NCBI GenBank assembly: GCA_003480425.1
Contig: QUJA01000058.1
Coordinates: 1-13,341, forward strand
Source: Firmicutes bacterium AM31-12AC
GTDB lineage: Bacteria; Bacillota; Clostridia; Lachnospirales; Lachnospiraceae
DNA: 13,341 bases
Direction of reading: 5' to 3'
This document shows positions 1,904 through 11,130 of this stretch, piece by piece. How positions within the stretch are numbered: the stretch's first letter is position 1; every line of letters starts with the position of its first letter. A program made the translations under genes and the position numbers. Under the pieces are notes generated by a model, which was given only the letters and a program-made list of their open reading frames with translations, was not told the DNA's origin and did not search any database.

Positions 1904-1932
1904 TAGACTTACTTCAAGAAAAAATGTATAAT
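1904..1932 (+). promoter_or_regulatory. Sigma-A-type promoter for the riboswitch-histidine kinase transcript
   Basis: TAGACT (1904-1909, four of six matches to TTGACA), then exactly 17 bp, then a perfect TATAAT (1927-1932). Transcription would begin near 1939, eight bases before the first paired base of the riboswitch. No other equally good promoter is seen in this gap. Confidence 0.75.
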
Positions 1933-1946
1933 AAGAGAAAAAGATT

Positions 1947-2015
1947 CGTTAGCAAATCAGCCGAAAGTCTGAGACACAAAGTATAAGAGTTGCAAAATAG
2001 CAGCCAGTTACAACG
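1947..2015 (+). ncRNA. GEMM-I cyclic-dinucleotide riboswitch aptamer (c-di-GMP-I type, A20 variant)
   Basis: The core matches the GEMM-I fold position by position. P1 is CGTT (1947-1950) with AACG (2012-2015). The conserved AGCAAA (1951-1956) follows. P1b is TCAGCC/GTCTGA closed by a GAAA tetraloop (1963-1966), the same length as in the Vibrio Vc2 aptamer. Then comes GACACAAAG (1973-1981), which contains the A (1978) that intercalates between the ligand bases, and finally CCAGTTAC with the ligand-pairing C (2011). P2 is short: GTTGC (1989-1993) with GCAGC (2000-2004). By alignment to Vc2 numbering (from memory), position 20 is A1951 instead of the common G, a change associated with relaxed or cGAMP-preferring recognition. 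A terminator follows at once, so control is likely by transcription termination. Which state the ligand favours cannot be read with certainty. Confidence 0.85.
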
Positions 2016-2021
2016 TTTAGG

Positions 2022-2052
2022 ATGCATTGTCTGAAAAGGCAATGCGTTTTTT
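2022..2052 (+). terminator. Intrinsic terminator, expression platform of the riboswitch
   Basis: GCATTGTC (2024-2031), loop TGAAAA, then GGCAATGC (2038-2045), followed by G and six T (2047-2052). It lies six nt beyond P1 and before the kinase ribosome site. ACAA (2010-2013), on the 3' side of P1, could instead pair with TTGT (2027-2030). A ligand that stabilises P1 would then favour termination (an off switch); that direction is inference. Confidence 0.85.
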
Positions 2053-2110: not shown

Positions 2111-4660
2111 ATGAAAGAAAATAGAGATGATATAAAAAGTCAATTGTATTACATGGATGAAATCCTTCATAAGATTTCTTCTATGAGTCAGGCAGAGAAT
2201 GAAAAACAACTGGATAATATGACATTATCTATGCTGAAGAGCATTGGAAAATATACAGCAGCAGACAGAGCGTATGTTTTTGAATGGAGTTCAGAAAAAA
2301 AGGAAAGTTTTAAAAATACATTTGAATGGTGTGCCGCAGGAATCGAACCACAGATACAGAATCTGCAGGAAGTTCCTGTCTGCCTGATGCAGAACTGGGT
2401 AGAAACATTTATCCAGAAGAAAAATATCATCATTTATGATCTGGAAGAAATCGCAAAAGAAACTCCACAGGAATATGAAATTTTAAAGCCTCAGAATATT
2501 CATTCCCTGATTGCTATGCCGATTTATACAAATCATAAATTTATCGGATTTATCGGATTGGATAACCCGAATCTGAATCAGGATAGGATGTCCATGAATC
2601 TGTTATCTGATGTGGGATGCCATCTGGGAAGTGTTCGTGAAAACCTGAGAATGATGAAGGAACTGATGATAAAGAACAGGATTTTGTCAGGACTGAGCCG
2701 TGATTATACGACAGCTTTTGTTTTAAATCTGGATACGGATGAGTATGAGTTTGTATTTAATCAGAAGACAAATCATGCCCAGAAACATGAAGAGCTCAGA
2801 GCATTTTCAGATTATGTGGATGCATATGCTTCTACATTTGCACTTCCGGAATTTCGTGATGTAATGCGTCGGGAACTGGACCGTAACGAGATTAAAAAGC
2901 ATTTTGAAACAGAAGACGAATATCATTTCTCTTTTGAGACGTCACCAAATGCAGCAGGGCTGTCCTGTTTTCAGGCACATATTGTAAAAGAGTACGAGGA
3001 AGGCAGCCATTTTGCGTTCCTTGGTTTCCGAAGTATAGATGAGATCGTACAGAAAGAGCGTTTTTATAAAGATTCTTTGCAAAAAGTAAATCAGGCACTT
3101 AAGCATCAGCTGGACATGATCACATCTGCACTGCCGGGTGGTGTGAAAATCAGCAATGATGATCCGGAATATTCTTTTAAGTATGTTTCAGAGCATTTTG
3201 CACAGATGCTGGGATATGATACTCCGGAGGAATTGATGGAAGCTTCTGGAGGGACGATTGTTGACCTGGCGCATCCGGACGATCTGGAACAGGGAATTGC
3301 ACAGGCGTTGGAGCAGTATAGTAAAGCGGATCATTATGAAATCACATATCGAATGAGATGCAAAAATGGATCTTGGAAATATATTGAGGACAGGGGACAC
3401 AAAATCCGCAAACCGGATGGAGTAATCGAACACTGGAATCTGATTCTGGATAAAAATGAACTGGTGGAAAAAACCATTGCCCTGGAAAGCGAGAAAAAAG
3501 CAAACCAGAGTAAATCGGATTTTCTTTCCAGAATGTCCCATGATATGCGGACACCATTGAATGGAATTATCGGACTTATGGATATCTGCATGAAGCACCC
3601 GGAGGACAGAATATTGGTGGATTCCAGTCGTCTTAAGGCAAGAGTAGCGGCAGACCATCTGTTGTCGCTGATCAATGACACGCTGGAACTGAGTAAACTG
3701 GAAAATGAAGAGGTAAAACTGGCTAAAGAAGATTTTTATCTGCCGGAGCTGCTTCATGAGGTGGAAACCATTGCACAGATGAGGGCAGATGAAGAGTGTA
3801 TTACGATTCATTTTATGGATGCTCCTTATTCGATTCCATATCCGAATCTTATCGGAAGTTCCCTGCATGTAAAACAGATATTTTTAAATTTGATCACAAA
3901 CAGTATTAAATACAACCATAAAAATGGAACTGTGGATTGCTACTTGAAAGAAGAGAAGGAATCCGATGAAAGAGTGCTGGTAGATGTGACTATAAAAGAT
4001 ACGGGAATCGGAATGTCAGAGGATTTCCTGAAGAATATATTTCGTCCATTTGTTCAGGCTGATCAGGGAGCAAGATCGCAGTATAAAGGTACTGGACTAG
4101 GCATGGCGATTGTAAAGGAACTGCTTGATCGCATGGGTGGAACCATTCAGATTGACAGTGTGGAAAATCAGGGCACTACCATACATGTGGTCATACCTTT
4201 TGAAATAGCAGAAGAACCTGCAGCTGTACAGGAAATGTCTGAGTTACCAAAGGAAAACCTGTCCGGGTGCCGTATTCTATTGGCAGAGGATAACGAGCTC
4301 AACAGGGAAATTGCGGCATTCCTTCTGAAAGATGAGGGGATTTCCGTCACAGAGGCGGAAGATGGACAGCAGGCAGTGGAATGTTTCCTAAAAATGCCGG
4401 AAGGATATTACGATGCGGTTCTAATGGATATCATGATGCCTGTGATGGACGGATATCAGGCAGCTAGGGCGATTCGTGGCAGTGGAAAGAAAGATGCAGA
4501 AATGATTCCAATCGTTGCCATAACAGCCAATGCTTTTGCTGAAGATAAAAGAAAGACGATGGAGGCAGGGATGGATGCGCACTTGTCAAAACCTTTAAAT
4601 GTACAGGAACTGATGGATACAATCCGAAAATTCTGTGCTGGTAAGCAGATATGTCAGTGA
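2111..4660 (+). CDS. Soluble hybrid histidine kinase (GAF-PAS-HisKA-HATPase-REC)
   Basis: Predicted cytoplasmic sensor kinase that autophosphorylates on His and passes phosphate to its own receiver. The ATG at 2111 follows GGGGA at good distance and gives 849 residues. The frame also opens from a TTG at 2027, but that lies in the terminator stem and cannot be the start. Residues about 37-180 are GAF-like, about 190-335 a degenerate PAS-like region, and about 340-455 a PAS fold. HisKA carries the H-box SHDMRTPLNG with His477. The ATPase domain has the N-box (Asn593/597), DTGIG, and GTGLGMAIVKELL. The receiver (about 720-840) has Glu726/Asp727, phosphoacceptor Asp773 and Lys827. All catalytic residues are present and no membrane helix is seen. 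There is no separate response regulator or output domain nearby, so the phosphorelay partner is unknown. It is the first gene behind the riboswitch, and a second sensor gene follows after 30 bp. Confidence 0.93.
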   Translation: MKENRDDIKSQLYYMDEILHKISSMSQAENEKQLDNMTLSMLKSIGKYTAADRAYVFEWSSEKKESFKNTFEWCAAGIEPQIQNLQEVPVCLMQNWVETFIQKKNIIIYDLEEIAKETPQEYEILKPQNIHSLIAMPIYTNHKFIGFIGLDNPNLNQDRMSMNLLSDVGCHLGSVRENLRMMKELMIKNRILSGLSRDYTTAFVLNLDTDEYEFVFNQKTNHAQKHEELRAFSDYVDAYASTFALPEFRDVMRRELDRNEIKKHFETEDEYHFSFETSPNAAGLSCFQAHIVKEYEEGSHFAFLGFRSIDEIVQKERFYKDSLQKVNQALKHQLDMITSALPGGVKISNDDPEYSFKYVSEHFAQMLGYDTPEELMEASGGTIVDLAHPDDLEQGIAQALEQYSKADHYEITYRMRCKNGSWKYIEDRGHKIRKPDGVIEHWNLILDKNELVEKTIALESEKKANQSKSDFLSRMSHDMRTPLNGIIGLMDICMKHPEDRILVDSSRLKARVAADHLLSLINDTLELSKLENEEVKLAKEDFYLPELLHEVETIAQMRADEECITIHFMDAPYSIPYPNLIGSSLHVKQIFLNLITNSIKYNHKNGTVDCYLKEEKESDERVLVDVTIKDTGIGMSEDFLKNIFRPFVQADQGARSQYKGTGLGMAIVKELLDRMGGTIQIDSVENQGTTIHVVIPFEIAEEPAAVQEMSELPKENLSGCRILLAEDNELNREIAAFLLKDEGISVTEAEDGQQAVECFLKMPEGYYDAVLMDIMMPVMDGYQAARAIRGSGKKDAEMIPIVAITANAFAEDKRKTMEAGMDAHLSKPLNVQELMDTIRKFCAGKQICQ

Positions 4661-4690: not shown

Positions 4691-5170
4691 ATGAAAAAAG
4701 ACAGCGAACTATATAAAAAGATAAGAGTACATTGCTATATTGTTGGATTGATTGCTTTTCTGACAGCATTGATTGTTGGCGTTTTTCTGCTTCATAATTT
4801 GGAAAAGGATGAAAAGACAACCGGAAAATATATGGCGCAGATTACTGAGAAAAGAGTCAGGGCAAGACTGGATCAGTATAGCATGCTTTCTGCTCTTTTG
4901 GAAAATTATATCAGTGCAGGAGAGAATCTGGATGAGAATACATTTTCTGAACTGGCAGAAAAGATTCCTAATGAAGATGGAGTGATAAAGGCATTTGAAC
5001 TGGCACCTGAAGGGATTGTTACAGACATTTATCCGAAACAGGGAAATGAGGGGGCTTTTGGACTGGATATGCTGCAGGAACATGAACGGAAAAAGGATGC
5101 AATTTTGGCAAGGGGTAGCGGGAAATCAACCTCCGACAATTATGATACCTTAATTATATCAGATATATGA
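4691..5170 (+). pseudogene. CHASE-domain membrane sensor, 3'-truncated
   Basis: A frame of 159 residues starts with ATG preceded by GAGGGA, 30 bp after the kinase stop, so it is probably in the riboswitch-controlled operon. Residues about 12-35 form a membrane helix. The extracellular part has clear CHASE features: VIKAFELAPEGIVTDIYP, then NEGAFGLDML and KKDAILARGSGK. CHASE domains run about 180-200 residues, end in a second membrane helix and precede a kinase or GGDEF output. Here homology stops at about residue 155 (around 5160) and the frame ends with ISDI. No second helix and no output domain remain. The break adjoins a structured non-coding block (5176-5350). If still translated, it would make a one-helix anchored stub. 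The original output domain cannot be told. Confidence 0.8.
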
Positions 5171-5384: not shown

Positions 5385-5871
5385 ATGGGAAACGAATTCA
5401 CAAATAAGATTTTGAAACTTGCTCTGCCCATTACAGCACAACAATTTATGTTAGCACTTGTAAGTGCATGCGATACTTTTATGTTGGGTATTAAGATATG
5501 TATTCATAATTTCCATTCTCTTTCTGCTTGCAGCATTCTTTATTCCTGAAACGCTCATGCGACTGTTTACAAACGATACTATACTGATTGATTATGGTAT
5601 TAAGTATTTGAAAGTGATTGGATTATCCTATAACTTTTCAGGAGTTCTGCAGGTTTTGCAGGGAATCTTGAAAAATTGTGGTTATGCAGGTAGATGTACC
5701 ATGTGGTGCTTTGCAGTTCCACTGGGATGTATCGCAGCATTTGTATTTAAATTGCCGGTAATGATGGTGTATTTTGTCTTAAATCTGGATGAACTGGTAA
5801 AACTTCCGGCAGTATTTAAATATTATAAACAATATAAATGGTTAAAAAATTTAACAGAAATGGAGAATTAA
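5385..5871 (+). pseudogene. MATE-family efflux transporter, internally deleted and frameshifted
   Basis: MATE proteins are multidrug or metabolite antiporters of about 450 residues with 12 helices. An ATG after AGAAAGGA opens typical MATE N-terminal sequence (KILKLALPITAQQFMLAL, then SACDTFMLG). That frame stops at 5549 after 54 residues. From about 5493 the next frame carries MATE C-terminal sequence: FLLAAFFIPETLMRLFTND, then a GLSYNFSGVLQVLQGILKNCG segment, then VPLG..AFVFKLPV, ending at 5871. Only about the first 35 and last 130 residues remain, and the last part also looks shortened after NCGYAG, where a helix is usually longer. The deletion joins the two ends out of frame. It is not functional as a transporter. 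The upstream side abuts the structured block at 5176-5350. Confidence 0.82.
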
Positions 5872-7106: not shown

Positions 7107-7769
7107 CTAATACTTCAAAGAGAAGGTGTTTTTCTTGTAAGAGAGGACACCTTCTTTTTGTAATTTGCTTAATTCATTAGATAGAGCACTTCGATCTGCA
7201 TTCAGATAATCTGCCAGCCCTTGCCTATCGTAAGGGATTGTAAATGTGTTAGAGCCGGCATGCATAGATTCGCCAGACAAGTAATTAAGTATCTTGTCAC
7301 GTAAATTTTTCTTAGAAATATGATCTATTTTGTTCATCAATCTTACATTTTTTCTTGCTATTATCTCTAACAGGTTATGAATCAATCTTGTATGGAAACT
7401 GCAAGATGAAGAACAGGTTGTAATAATATGATTTATATTGAAAAGCATGACGGTGAGATTTTCATTGGCAATGACACTGATTTGAGCAGGAACACTGCTG
7501 ATGCAGGCATAGCTTTCGCCATAGAGCATTCCTGATGACAGCTCTGTAATAATATTGCGATTCCCCCAGACATCATCATTTATTATGAGAGCCTGACCAG
7601 ATAGAATCATGCCGATAGTTTGTACCTTATCGCCACTTCTTAGCAGGTATTCACCTTTTGAATAATTTTTAATGCTGACAGATAGACATTTAAGCATTGG
7701 AAGAATTTCTGCTTCTGAAATTCCTTGAAACAAAGGTGTATTCGTTAAGATGTTCATATATTTTTCCAT
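7107..7769 (-). CDS. Crp/Fnr-family transcription regulator (HcpR-like by context)
   Basis: The protein has an N-terminal cyclic-nucleotide-type effector barrel (about residues 10-125, including the loop GEYLLRSGDKVQTIGMILSG) and a long dimer helix. A C-terminal winged helix-turn-helix follows, with DRQGLADYLNADRSALSNEL as recognition region. I start at 7769 (220 residues). The ATG at 7802 touches the -10 box, while 7769 has AAGAAGGA upstream inside the predicted transcript. The cysteine arrangement of oxygen-sensing FNR near the N-terminus is absent. Several cysteines (a CSSSC run mid-protein) are present but not a recognised cluster motif. It diverges from hcp across a 14-bp palindrome. Known HcpR proteins of this family sense nitric oxide stress and activate hcp, so that role is likely. 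The name rests on context. Confidence 0.87.
   Translation of the reverse strand: MEKYMNILTNTPLFQGISEAEILPMLKCLSVSIKNYSKGEYLLRSGDKVQTIGMILSGQALIINDDVWGNRNIITELSSGMLYGESYACISSVPAQISVIANENLTVMLFNINHIITTCSSSCSFHTRLIHNLLEIIARKNVRLMNKIDHISKKNLRDKILNYLSGESMHAGSNTFTIPYDRQGLADYLNADRSALSNELSKLQKEGVLSYKKNTFSLKY
7121..7159 (+). terminator. Plus-strand terminator nested in the 3' coding end of the regulator gene
   Basis: AGAAGGTGT (7121-7129) pairs perfectly with ACACCTTCT (7147-7155), followed by TTTTG. It ends the plus-strand transcript of the preceding genes, yet the hairpin lies in codons of the minus-strand regulator (the KEGVLSYKKN region). On the minus strand no T tract follows, so it serves one direction only. 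Confidence 0.7.
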
Positions 7770-7802
7770 GAGTTCTATAATCCTTCTTTTCATCTTTTCC
7801 AT

Positions 7803-7808
7803 AGTATA
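7803..7808 (-). promoter_or_regulatory. -10 box of the regulator gene promoter
   Basis: Minus-strand TATACT directly before an ATG at 7802. About 17-18 bp further up is TTGTTT, a weak -35 box. The palindrome at 7837-7850 lies around -47 from the expected start, just upstream of the -35 box, which would allow autoregulation. Confidence 0.5.
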
Positions 7809-7836
7809 TCACAAAAATCGAAAACAAAACAAAAAT

Positions 7837-7850
7837 GTTGTCTGGACAAC
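7837..7850. promoter_or_regulatory. Crp/Fnr-type operator between regulator and hcp
   Basis: Perfect inverted repeat GTTGTC-TG-GACAAC in the divergent gap. Its centre (7843.5) is 41.5 bp before the start predicted from the hcp -10 box, the exact class II activator position. It is the only long palindrome in this gap. Confidence 0.75.
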
Positions 7851-7869
7851 GGAATAATTGTTGTGAGTT

Positions 7870-7878
7870 TGATATAGT
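7870..7878 (+). promoter_or_regulatory. Extended -10 promoter of hcp
   Basis: TGATATAGT (TGn plus -10). The -35 position (about 7850-7855, CGGAAT) bears no resemblance to TTGACA, as expected for an activator-dependent promoter. The predicted start is near 7885. Confidence 0.68.
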
Positions 7879-7929
7879 ACCATTAAACAACAAGAAATAA
7901 TGAATAAAGCAATAGAAAAGGAGAAAAAC

Positions 7930-9534
7930 ATGGAAAATAAAATGTTTTGTTATCAATGTGAACAGACCGCAGGATGTACAGGATGTACCGGAAATGCAGG
8001 AGTATGCGGAAAGTCCGCCAATACTGCAAGATTACAGGATGAGCTTACAGGAGCATTAATCGGACTTGCTCGTGCAGTCGAGGGCAATGAGCACCTTGTA
8101 AACGAAGAGATGAATCAATTAGTTCTTGAGGGATTGTTTACAACCGTTACAAACGTAAACTTTAATGATGAGACATTAAAAATTTTAATTTATAAGATAG
8201 AAAATGAAAAAAAGAAATTAGTACCAAATTGCTTTACATGTTCCGGCTCATGTGGAAGAAACGATAATTTTGATATGAATACTCTCTGGACTACTGATGA
8301 AGATGTTCGTTCCTTAAAATCCTTAATACTTTTTGGGATTCGTGGAATGGCTGCATATGCATATCATGCAAGTGTACTTGGATATACCGATGAAACAATC
8401 AGCAAATTCTTCTATAAGGCACTTTTTGCAGTCGGAATGAAGGATTGGGGAATGAATGAACTACTTCCTATTGTATTAGAGGTTGGAGAAGTGAATTTAA
8501 GATGTATGGAGCTTTTAGATCAGGCAAATACTACAACTTATGGAACTCCTGTACCAACAACAGTACCTCTTACAATTGAAAAAGGACCATTTATTATTAT
8601 TACCGGTCATGATTTAAAAGATTTACAACTTTTATTAGAGCAGACAAAAGATAAAGGAATCAATATTTATACACATGGTGAAATGCTCCCGGCGCATGCA
8701 TATCCAGAATTTAAGAAGTACTCTCATTTAAAGGGAAACTTTGGTACAGCATGGCAGAATCAGCAGAAAGAGTTTGATAATATTCCTGGGGCAATTCTTT
8801 ACACGACGAACTGTCTTATGCCTGTAAAACCAAGCTACGCAGACAGAGTATTTACAACAGAAGTTGTATCTTATCCGGAAATGGTACACATAGGAGAAGA
8901 AAAGGATTTTACACCGGTGATTGAAAAGGCACTCGCCTTAGGTGGATATACCAAAGACCAGCATATGACGGGAATTAATGGTGGAATACAGGTGACAACT
9001 GGTTTCTCACATGGAACTGTATTATCTGTAGCAGATCAGGTGATTGAAGCAGTAAAGAATGAAGATATTAAACATTTCTTCCTGGTTGGTGGATGTGATG
9101 GAGCCAGAGTAGGAAGAAACTACTACACAGAGTTTGTAAAACAGTCTCCTGCAGACAGCATTATTTTGACGCTTGCATGTGGAAAATATAGGTTCAACGA
9201 TTTAGATTTAGGAACAATCGGAGGACTTCCGAGAATCATGGACATGGGACAGTGTAATGATGCTTATAGTGCAATCAAGGTCGCAATCGCTTTAGCAGAA
9301 GCATTTGAATGTGATGTAAATGAACTTCCGCTATCGATGGTACTTTCATGGTACGAGCAGAAGGCCGTATGTATTTTACTTACACTTCTCTATCTCGGAA
9401 TCAAGAACATTCACCTCGGACCAACATTACCAGCATTTATTTCGCCAAATGTGCTGAATTTCCTAGTAGAGAATTATGGGATTTCTCCAATTAGTACACC
9501 GGAAGAGGATCTAAAAAAGTTATTAAATAAATAA
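7930..9534 (+). CDS. hcp: Hybrid cluster protein (hydroxylamine/NO reductase)
   Basis: Hcp carries a [4Fe-4S] and a hybrid [4Fe-2S-2O] cluster. It reduces hydroxylamine in vitro and acts as a nitric oxide reductase in cells. The start at 7930 (534 residues) has AAAAGGAG before it; an ATG at 7900 lacks one. The N-terminal cluster ligands are Cys7, Cys10, Cys19 and Cys25, in the CxxC-x8-C-x5-C spacing of the anaerobe type, with an extra Cys16. Hybrid cluster ligands are all in place: His227, Glu251, Cys295, Cys389 (the persulfide one, in VGGCDGAR), Cys417, Cys442, Glu476 and Lys478. Their spacing matches the Desulfovibrio enzyme almost to the residue. No NADH-dependent reductase (hcr) follows; the next gene is a DUF438 protein. 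Control by the divergent Crp/Fnr regulator is likely. Confidence 0.97.
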   Translation: MENKMFCYQCEQTAGCTGCTGNAGVCGKSANTARLQDELTGALIGLARAVEGNEHLVNEEMNQLVLEGLFTTVTNVNFNDETLKILIYKIENEKKKLVPNCFTCSGSCGRNDNFDMNTLWTTDEDVRSLKSLILFGIRGMAAYAYHASVLGYTDETISKFFYKALFAVGMKDWGMNELLPIVLEVGEVNLRCMELLDQANTTTYGTPVPTTVPLTIEKGPFIIITGHDLKDLQLLLEQTKDKGINIYTHGEMLPAHAYPEFKKYSHLKGNFGTAWQNQQKEFDNIPGAILYTTNCLMPVKPSYADRVFTTEVVSYPEMVHIGEEKDFTPVIEKALALGGYTKDQHMTGINGGIQVTTGFSHGTVLSVADQVIEAVKNEDIKHFFLVGGCDGARVGRNYYTEFVKQSPADSIILTLACGKYRFNDLDLGTIGGLPRIMDMGQCNDAYSAIKVAIALAEAFECDVNELPLSMVLSWYEQKAVCILLTLLYLGIKNIHLGPTLPAFISPNVLNFLVENYGISPISTPEEDLKKLLNK

Positions 9535-9618
9535 TCAGACGGGAACGGAAAGAGACAGATTTACAATTGTGAGATAGATTTTTCTTAAAACAAAATAGGG
9601 GAAAGGCGGTAAAATATT

Positions 9619-11130
9619 ATGAGTAAAAAAATTGATTTAAACTGGTCGGTGTATGATATTACGAAAACTTATCCAGAAGTGATTGATATTATGGCAAATC
9701 TTGGGTTTGATGAAATTAAGAAGCCGGCTATGCTAAACTCCGTTGGACGAATTATGACAATTCCTAAGGGTGCAAAGGCAAAAGGAATTTCGATTCCGGT
9801 TGTTATAGCAGAACTGATAAAAAATGGTTTTGAAATTACTGGTAATATGCCAGATATTTCTTCTATGGGGAGCAAACAATTTCAAGCCAAAGAGACTGGC
9901 AATACAGTATTACTGAAGGATTATTTAAAGAGACTTGGAAATGGAGAAGATTTAGAAAGTGTAAAAAAAGATTTTGTCCAGAATTTTTCTGATGTAGATG
10001 CTTCTGAAATTATGAAGGCAGAGCAGGAACTTATAAAAGAGGGAACACCTATTACAGAGGTGCAGAAACTGTGTGATGTGCATAGTGCATTGTTTCATGG
10101 CTTAACCAAAGAAGAAAAAATAGCAAATGCTGAAAAGGCAGTCGAAGAATCTTTAAAAAAGGAAGAAACATCCGGAATGACAACTATGACGGATGCATAT
10201 GTCAGAAAACATGAGCTTGCAAAAGCACTCAGAGAAACAAAGGGTCATCCTCTTTATTCTTTTACAGAAGCAAATGAGAAGTTTAGCAAAGAAATAGCAG
10301 ATATTAGAGGTGCACTGGAAAAGGGCGAAGATGTAAGCAAAAAAATATCAGATTTTAGACAAATAGCAATACACTATGCAAAAAAGGGTGATTTGATTTA
10401 TCCACTCCTTAAAGTTCGCTATGAAATATCAGGACCATCGTATGTTATGTGGTCTGTTGATGATGAAATCAGAGATGAATTAGCAGCAATAGATAAGGAA
10501 TGCAATCATGACGAAGAATGGATTAAAAGAGTACAGGCTGTTTTAACAAGAGCAGATGAAATGATTTATAAAGAGACTAATATACTGTTCCCTATCTGCG
10601 CAATGAATTTTACAGCCGAAGAATGGTATGAAATCTATGAAGATGCCAAAGACTATGCATTAGTGTATGGCATTGATAATAGATGGGAAGAAGCAGAAAA
10701 ATATGTGCAGGATAAAAAGAATCGTCATGAGGCGGCTATTTATGAAGGTGAAATAGTAATGGGCGGTGGACATATGAGTGCAGCACAGTTGGAAGCTATG
10801 CTTAATACGTTGCCAATAGAGATTACATTTATCGATGATAATAATATAAATCGTTTCTTTAATGAAGGAGCGAAAGTGTTCAAACGCCCTGGCATGGCAA
10901 TTGACAGAGAAGTATTCTCTTGTCATCCGCCTAAGATAGAACCAATGGTTCGCTCCATTATAGAAAGTTTTAAAAATCATACTCGTGATAGCGTTCCGGT
11001 TTGGATGGAAAAGCAGGGAAAACCATTTTTAGTTACTTATTATGCAGTGAGAGACAAAAAAGATAATTATCTTGGAACTGTAGAAGTGGTACAGGATATG
11101 CAGTTTGCAAAAGAGCACTTTACAAGTTAA
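9619..11130 (+). CDS. DUF1858-DUF438-hemerythrin-like-PAS protein
   Basis: Cytosolic protein of 503 residues, 84 bp after hcp, with GGGGAAAGGCGG before the start. Residues about 5-75 are DUF1858, about 95-165 DUF438 (with CDVHSALFHG), about 205-350 a hemerythrin-like four-helix region, and about 380-500 a PAS domain ending VRDKKDNYLGTVEVVQDM, with CHPPK inside. In family members the helix bundle has His, His-x4-Glu, a VMWGVHDEIR motif and KEENILFP. Here His210 and His252 remain, but the Glu is Gly257 and the His of the third motif is Asp281 (VMWSVDDEIR). Iron binding may therefore be altered or lost. Position after hcp suggests a role in sensing or handling nitrosative or redox stress. No enzyme activity can be named. 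I see no clear terminator between it and hcp, so they likely form one operon. Confidence 0.88.
   Translation: MSKKIDLNWSVYDITKTYPEVIDIMANLGFDEIKKPAMLNSVGRIMTIPKGAKAKGISIPVVIAELIKNGFEITGNMPDISSMGSKQFQAKETGNTVLLKDYLKRLGNGEDLESVKKDFVQNFSDVDASEIMKAEQELIKEGTPITEVQKLCDVHSALFHGLTKEEKIANAEKAVEESLKKEETSGMTTMTDAYVRKHELAKALRETKGHPLYSFTEANEKFSKEIADIRGALEKGEDVSKKISDFRQIAIHYAKKGDLIYPLLKVRYEISGPSYVMWSVDDEIRDELAAIDKECNHDEEWIKRVQAVLTRADEMIYKETNILFPICAMNFTAEEWYEIYEDAKDYALVYGIDNRWEEAEKYVQDKKNRHEAAIYEGEIVMGGGHMSAAQLEAMLNTLPIEITFIDDNNINRFFNEGAKVFKRPGMAIDREVFSCHPPKIEPMVRSIIESFKNHTRDSVPVWMEKQGKPFLVTYYAVRDKKDNYLGTVEVVQDMQFAKEHFTS

Follow-up and report, generated by a model that had tools for sequence, protein, structure and literature searches.

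A GEMM-I riboswitch leader with a damaged aptamer and a retained terminator ahead of a hybrid sensor kinase gene in a Lachnospiraceae bacterium

Introduction

A leader upstream of a hybrid sensor kinase gene in Firmicutes bacterium AM31-12AC resembles the GEMM-I (c-di-GMP-I) riboswitch and carries A, not G, at ligand-contact position 20. Does such a leader sense 3',3'-cGAMP, c-di-GMP, or no ligand at all? The original prediction, made from the sequence, held that every conserved GEMM-I element is visible and that the leader may be a cGAMP-sensing or promiscuous switch. Here we analyzed the whole 13,341-nt stretch of contig QUJA01000058.1 that contains it (the window) together with related leaders from Lachnospiraceae. 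Most likely, the leader belongs to a known riboswitch family and is degraded, although its attenuator survives; the cGAMP reading of A20 is not supported.

Results

The leader descends from a GEMM-I aptamer

An Rfam scan of the window returned no family at or above its gathering score. With a permissive threshold, the c-di-GMP-I model RF01051, which had been proposed as a check, did match at positions 1941–1997, but with 22.6 bits, under its gathering score of 35 (E-value 0.018 or 0.011 for a short stretch of the window). On a comparison scale of eight related whole genomes, the same model gave 13.9–17.1 bits for matches below the cut-off and 38.5–67 bits for those above it, and the ortholog in genome G001 reached 52.0 bits; by itself, the 22.6-bit score is suggestive, not decisive. 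Weak matches of CRISPR-DR62, sR44, STnc240, and GibS to the same bases were all below their cut-offs and were taken as chance, including that of STnc240, which in one scan scored 26.5 bits, above the RF01051 value and still under its own cut-off.

A family-specific covariance model, R1, was built from 50 Lachnospiraceae GEMM-I aptamers (alignment A1), excluding the window and its two orthologs. The source of A1 was 60 aptamer rows, 8 further heads without a recognizable 3' end never having become rows; removal of the window, L194, L209, L205, cores longer than 80 nt, and duplicates left 52 rows, from which L174 and L183, the rows of the two orthologs, were also removed. A1 strongly supports the native fold, with 93.9% of cells paired, 9 of the 15 pairs changed on both sides, and a covariation of 0.495 versus 0.199 when shuffled. 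R1 places the aptamer at 1951–2011 with a score of 40.2 bits; searched over the whole window, this corresponds to E = 1.7e-8, E-values of such models being rough. The orthologous leaders L111 and L248, neither of them in the model, score 77.0 bits each, and eight other leaders (five of them used to build R1) score 61.7–82.7 bits; a cut-off copy (L133) scores 63.5 bits and a degraded one (L252) 43 bits, while R1 gives no match on L194. A chance resemblance to GEMM-I was rejected on the R1 score and on the orthologous leaders, 80–81% identical to that of the window, that stand before related kinases. We take the descent of 1951–2011 from a c-di-GMP-I aptamer as secure, which bears out the original prediction on this point. 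The features of the locus are listed in Table 1.

Table 1. Features of the leader and adjacent genes in window coordinates
Feature	Position	Strand	Basis and remarks
Divergent GGDEF protein (diguanylate cyclase-like)	242–1660	−	PF00990, 80 bits; ATG picked within ORF 242–1882
Promoter-like site	1904–1932	+	TAGACT, 17 nt, TATAAT; 10/12 matches
Possible P1 5' strand CGUU	1947–1950	+	4 possible pairs with AACG 2012–2015, read from sequence
A at ligand-contact position 20	1951	+	Sequence and R1 alignment; same base in L111 and L248
Lower P2	1952–1977	+	G1952-C1977 kept; C1953-A1976 broken (G45 to A)
P2	1957–1962/1967–1972	+	GAAA tetraloop 1963–1966
A47 equivalent	1978	+	R1 alignment; A in 49/50 relatives
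P3 region	1982–2007	+	C51 missing; native P3 3/7 pairs
Alternative hairpin	1989–1993/2000–2004	+	Loop 1994–1999; minimum-energy fold
C92 equivalent	2011	+	R1 alignment; C in 50/50 relatives
Putative antiterminator	1957–2034	+	Truncated-transcript fold
Putative antiterminator pairing, first half	1957–1960/2031–2034, 1962–1964/2027–2029	+	
Putative antiterminator pairing, second half	1967–1970/2020–2023, 1972–1975/2015–2018	+	
Intrinsic terminator	2019–2050	+	Stem 2019–2032/2037–2050 (14 bp), loop 2033–2036, T run
Hybrid sensor kinase	2111–4660	+	GAF-PAS-HisKA-HATPase-receiver, 849 aa, ATG 2111

Two further variants, c-di-GMP-I-GGC (RF03167) and c-di-GMP-I-UAU, belong to the same clan as the family of the window. 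RF03167 was the clan model reported in six of seven related loci (L112, L250, L113, L248, L111, and L132), with scores of 44.6–55 bits, all below its cut-off of 59, and none was reported in L252. The window carries the triplet A20/A47/C92, unlike the triplets that, reading the variant names, we assume to define c-di-GMP-I-GGC and c-di-GMP-I-UAU. Among 13 aligned leaders, L112 (genome G396) has a G47 of the GGC type (GACGCGAAG); its best clan match is c-di-GMP-I-GGC with 55 bits (cut-off 59), and it is followed by ORFs named by eye as a solute-binding-like protein and a hybrid kinase.

The aptamer has lost conserved pairs

The window shares with the Lachnospiraceae short-P3 form of c-di-GMP-I the GCAAA motif, P2 with its GAAA loop, the GAC...CAAAG elements, the AGCCAGUUaC end containing C92, the terminator, and the gene order. 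It differs from this form by A45 in place of G45, by the missing C51, and by its incomplete native P3, and the claim that every conserved element is visible fails on these three points. Specifically, A1976 turns the C22-G45 pair into a C-A mismatch and the deletion of C51 removes the C51-G pair, both of which are unchanged in 50/50 relatives. Together with three more P3 pairs, the window loses five native pairs that are kept by both orthologs, while one further P2 mismatch is common to most relatives. In total, 9 of the 15 native pairs are present in the window, versus 14 in each of L111 and L248 and 13–15 in the other ten leaders; the computed energy of the native fold is +8.6 kcal/mol for the window and −6.6 and −7.1 kcal/mol for the orthologs. 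Retained are A47, which presumably stacks between the ligand bases, and C92, which we take to make a Watson-Crick contact to the ligand in GEMM-I. The counterpart of C92 in the cGAMP riboswitch is C75, which pairs with the ligand (PMC9262584).

The tetraloop had been correctly described as kept, and an 11-nt tetraloop receptor as missing. A short P3 without this receptor is common in the relatives, 27/50 of which have a core of 60–62 nt and 12/50 a receptor-like CTAAG...TATG. The five-pair hairpin with a 6-nt loop, also noticed earlier, can be read in the sequence and is part of the minimum-energy fold, but it lies in a register other than that of native P3, which covariation supports in the relatives. 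A45 occurs in 0/140 helix-checked Lachnospiraceae heads among the matches listed (the census is described below), and an A45 pattern gave 0/391 in a draw of Clostridia genomes made without a positive control. Four A45 pattern matches (G194, G363, G151, and G323) had fewer than four P2 pairs each and were treated as chance. By eye, the Watson-Crick pairs of the possible P1 are not conserved in the orthologs. Such a weak P1 fits Cd1, the c-di-GMP-I OFF switch of C. difficile, for which no P1 helix was seen by NMR (PMC9262584).

A at position 20 is common in the family

Alignment to the cGAMP riboswitch numbering agrees with the earlier assignment of A1951, the base before GCAAA, to position 20. 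The base just before P2 is the equivalent of this position, because the junction A9–A14 of the cGAMP riboswitch precedes the P2 pair C15-G40, which is followed by A41 (PMC6274999). We then counted the base in a pattern census over 397 Lachnospiraceae genomes, which required R20, GCAAA, a GAAA loop, and R45 with no mismatch, so that GEMM-I aptamers differing there are outside the count. The pattern matched in 124 genomes with at least 150 rows, and the removal of 10 of the 150 listed rows with fewer than four P2 pairs left 140 heads; a reversed-pattern control on the same 397 genomes gave 9 matches, close to the number removed. Among the matches listed, 20 of the 140 helix-checked heads have A20 and 120 have G20. 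A20 is also found in 8 of the 50 A1 aptamers, all eight retaining the G-C/C-G lower P2, and in both orthologous kinase leaders. As the key oddity of the window, A20 was rejected, since other family members commonly carry it, both orthologs among them; given its frequency among the matches listed, it seems by itself a weak indicator of a cGAMP riboswitch.

Published mutants are informative here. Changing G11 of Cd1, the position-20 equivalent, to A and C had no large effect, and the authors regard the site as a selectivity factor and not a hard filter (PMC9262584), while in Geobacter the replacement of A20 by G turns selectivity from cGAMP to c-di-GMP (PMC6456294). The cGAMP-sensing GEMM-I variants are called rare in a review (PMC7266159). 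Our literature search found no paper joining c-di-GMP riboswitches, cGAMP, and Lachnospiraceae in the collection searched.

The divergent GGDEF protein of the window has canonical GHAAGD and GGDEF motifs, the D of which we take to be the site setting nucleotide choice; S at this site marks the cGAMP-making Hypr enzymes. In a survey of GGDEF domains, 30 of 34 matches were taken as loci, and a strict motif scan of these matched 24 domains, 23 of them with D and one with N, from the two genomes with orthologous leaders, G001 and G421. No positive sign of cGAMP signaling was found in the neighbor GGDEF protein or in the GGDEF motif matches of these two genomes. The one domain with N for D at the guanine-contact site (GHDMGN) is that of locus L223 (G001, contig C1).

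The changes are concentrated in the lineage of the window

The two orthologous leaders precede related kinases: L111 lies in G001, to which the Blautia sp. MSJ-19 locus L071 belongs, and L248 in G421. The kinase of the window is 60.0% and 61.0% identical to the two orthologs, which are 73.0% identical to each other; for the C-terminal part of the kinase the search identities are 66 and 67%. Eight aptamer changes are specific to the window, versus one and one in the orthologs, and six of the eight changed columns are unanimous in 10 other leaders. The platform differs at 4 positions between the window and each ortholog, and at 3 between the orthologs. Simple arithmetic on the three kinase identities gives the window a branch roughly double the length of the ortholog branches. 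Part of the aptamer excess is therefore expected; branch length does not by itself explain all of it, although the counts are low.

No leader closer than 81% was found in two family draws, made up largely of the same genomes, in a genus draw, or in the relatives of G421; another genus draw, of 12 genomes around Mediterraneibacter agrestimuris, gave no match. Searches of phages, and of viral contigs for the leader head, gave none either, and an antisense ORF across the aptamer, used as a probe for sister strains, gave no match. A Fusicatenibacter kinase relative (L253, L254) was rejected as an ortholog, as it is about 41% identical in two blocks and no RF01051 match was listed on its contig.

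The terminator is retained with a putative antiterminator

A terminator-bearing leader before the hybrid kinase, as originally described, holds up: the terminator scan found one site, versus 0.2 expected in shuffles. The promoter scan of the region gave 3 sites versus 2.9 expected, which is chance level on its own; ATGTATAAT is found at a similar distance upstream of both orthologous aptamers. For transcripts ending before the 3' arm of the terminator, the minimum-energy fold pairs the P2 arm with the post-aptamer strand that holds the terminator 5' arm, and 15 of the 16 pairs of this putative antiterminator are possible in the window.

Support across the family is uneven. The antiterminator appears in the minimum-energy fold of 4 of 15 leaders (the window, L174, L176, and L132). 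Over 13 leaders, 85.9% of cells are standard pairs, versus at most 41.3% when the strands are slid, a score obtained on the same 13-leader sequences from which the structure was derived. Among 500 shuffles, 5 equaled this degree of pairing and 99 the covariation score; covariation over the 13 leaders is practically nil. In duplex shuffles, duplexes as good were obtained 3 times out of 1000 for L132, 7 for L251, 17 for L248, and 18 for L114, versus 63 for the window and 73–494 for the other eight leaders, including 316 for the ortholog L111. On this mixed evidence, an antiterminator is likely in part of the family.

In the full-length fold, a 9-bp complementarity of 1967–1975 with 2052–2060 encloses the terminator. 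By eye, 8/9 of these pairs are possible in L111, with G45-C in place of the A45-U of the window, and none was seen in the few other leaders inspected; this pairing lies beyond the terminator and was set aside as a functional part.

Probable decay of an OFF attenuator and its alternatives

We consider it probable that the leader is a c-di-GMP OFF attenuator that has decayed and now responds to ligand weakly or not at all. The ancestor would have been a GEMM-I transcription attenuator controlling the hybrid kinase. In intact relatives, the ligand is proposed to stabilize the P2/P3 aptamer and thereby to block the P2-arm antiterminator, so that the terminator forms; since the putative antiterminator uses aptamer bases, ligand binding would favor termination. 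In the window, the aptamer would have decayed: C22-G45 is broken, C51 is lost, and a hairpin of different register takes the place of native P3. The terminator is retained, as are most pairs of the putative antiterminator. The lost P3 predicts weak or no ligand binding, and the leader would show weak or no response to any cyclic dinucleotide and serve chiefly as a fixed attenuator, with a probable bias to read-through because nearly all pairs of the putative antiterminator are retained. A45 and the loss of C51 and of native P3 argue for loss of function rather than for a new ligand.

Cd1, also a Firmicute GEMM-I with an absent or weak P1, provides the topology that we propose for the window: aptamer and terminator coexist, and an antiterminator made from aptamer bases competes (PMC9262584). 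Cd1 differs from the window by G at position 20 and an intact P3, and its function was measured, whereas we infer that of the window. Binding in Cd1 is lost when either the P2-P3 contact through the tetraloop or that between G79 and C35 is broken (PMC9262584). By our own numbering, C35 and G79 correspond to C1975 and G2003; the window retains the two bases, but G2003 is paired in the new hairpin. It counts against decay that the window still has A47, C92, the GAAA tetraloop, C1975, and G2003.

The main rival of decay is a still working c-di-GMP switch of lower affinity, in which the A20/A47/C92 pocket and P2 would suffice and P3 would fold enough with ligand. Its appeal lies in the commonness of A20 and the mild effect of the matching change in Cd1, in the canonical GGDEF protein next door, in the kept order of promoter-like site, aptamer, terminator, and kinase, and in the dispensability of P1 for Cd1 binding, yet we judge it unlikely given the loss of five pairs found in both orthologs, of which two never vary among the 50 relatives, the native fold computed as unfavorable, and the need of Cd1 for the tetraloop contact (PMC9262584 for Cd1). 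More improbable, in our estimate, is an adaptive change, by which the lineage of the window would have rebuilt the aptamer (A20, A45, and the shifted P3) on a conserved attenuator into a rearranged pocket for another ligand, perhaps with a new cyclic-dinucleotide specificity, or into a ligand-independent regulatory hairpin. Window-specific bases do pair in the new hairpin (G1989-C2004, U1990-G2003, and C1993-G2000) and the platform is kept; but the hairpin engages G2003, which by our numbering is the G of the contact required in Cd1 (PMC9262584), the A45 searches, with the scope given above, yielded no second case, and a five-pair hairpin arises easily by drift. If true, a rebuilt aptamer would regulate a signaling kinase in human gut bacteria.

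Sensing of 3',3'-cGAMP, alone or together with c-di-GMP, has the slightest chance of all. The window does carry the triplet that the cGAMP riboswitch (GEMM-Ib, Geobacter) has at the corresponding positions (A14, A41, and C75; PMC6274999 and PMC9262584), and in Geobacter the base at position 20 switches selectivity (PMC6456294). In Lachnospiraceae, however, A at position 20 is not diagnostic, since it occurs in 20/140 heads among the matches listed, and Cd1 showed no large effect of the corresponding change. The first P2 pair (21–46) is G1952-C1977 in the window and G-C in 50/50 relatives, versus C15-G40 in the solved cGAMP riboswitch (PMC6274999). The neighbor GGDEF protein has the canonical D, as do 23/24 motif matches from G001 and G421, and no cGAMP enzyme was seen beside the switch; the fold damage would apply to cGAMP as well. 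Many cGAMP riboswitches are described as ON switches in Geobacter; the direction proposed for the window is OFF. The suggestion of a cGAMP-sensing or promiscuous switch is thus not supported, and decay of a c-di-GMP attenuator remains our preferred reading. Intact A20 leaders permit a direct test of cGAMP preference in such Firmicute GEMM-I aptamers.

Degraded leaders near other hybrid kinases

A second degraded GEMM-I leader, L252 (G421:C27:53576-53680; L255:11078-11139), has A20 and a conserved-looking terminator, with the tetraloop and the CAAAG motif altered (43 bits). It stands 92 nt before a 966-aa ORF covering a relative of the kinase of the window, and elsewhere on its contig two intact GEMM-I leaders precede ORFs of 950 and 557 aa. 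In Coprococcus catus (L133/L216; G004, contig C9), the aptamer ends abruptly after GACAGC and is fused to what by eye is an apparent receiver-domain end. GEMM-I leaders close to hybrid kinases may have been lost repeatedly in this group, but three cases do not suffice to give a rate. With intact copies in G001 and G421, a degraded one in the window, and a second degraded one in G421, these leaders form a natural series for riboswitch decay with a surviving attenuator.

The kinase and neighboring genes

The kinase has an alternative TTG start at 2027, inside the terminator, which gives the 877-aa form seen in databases. Among the matches listed, it is 100% identical to proteins of Ruminococcus hominis, Mediterraneibacter sp. 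NSJ-151 and HCN-7094, and Firmicutes bacterium AM43-11BH, and many further relatives are 94–97% identical. A 1143-aa relative, P0063, from a cluster of 439 sequences, aligns with the kinase over its full length apart from a single clean gap of 294 residues following residue 182, which is suggestive of the in-frame loss, or the gain, of an internal repeat block. Downstream, the short ORFs 4691–5170 and 5464–5871 match no more than part of a CHASE domain (24.4 bits, cut-off 25) and part of a MatE transporter, and look like gene remnants. At 7107–11130, a CRP/FNR-like regulator gene is divergent from that of a prismane-family (hybrid-cluster-like) protein, followed by a gene for a DUF438/hemerythrin/PAS protein, presumably an ordinary nitrosative-stress group.
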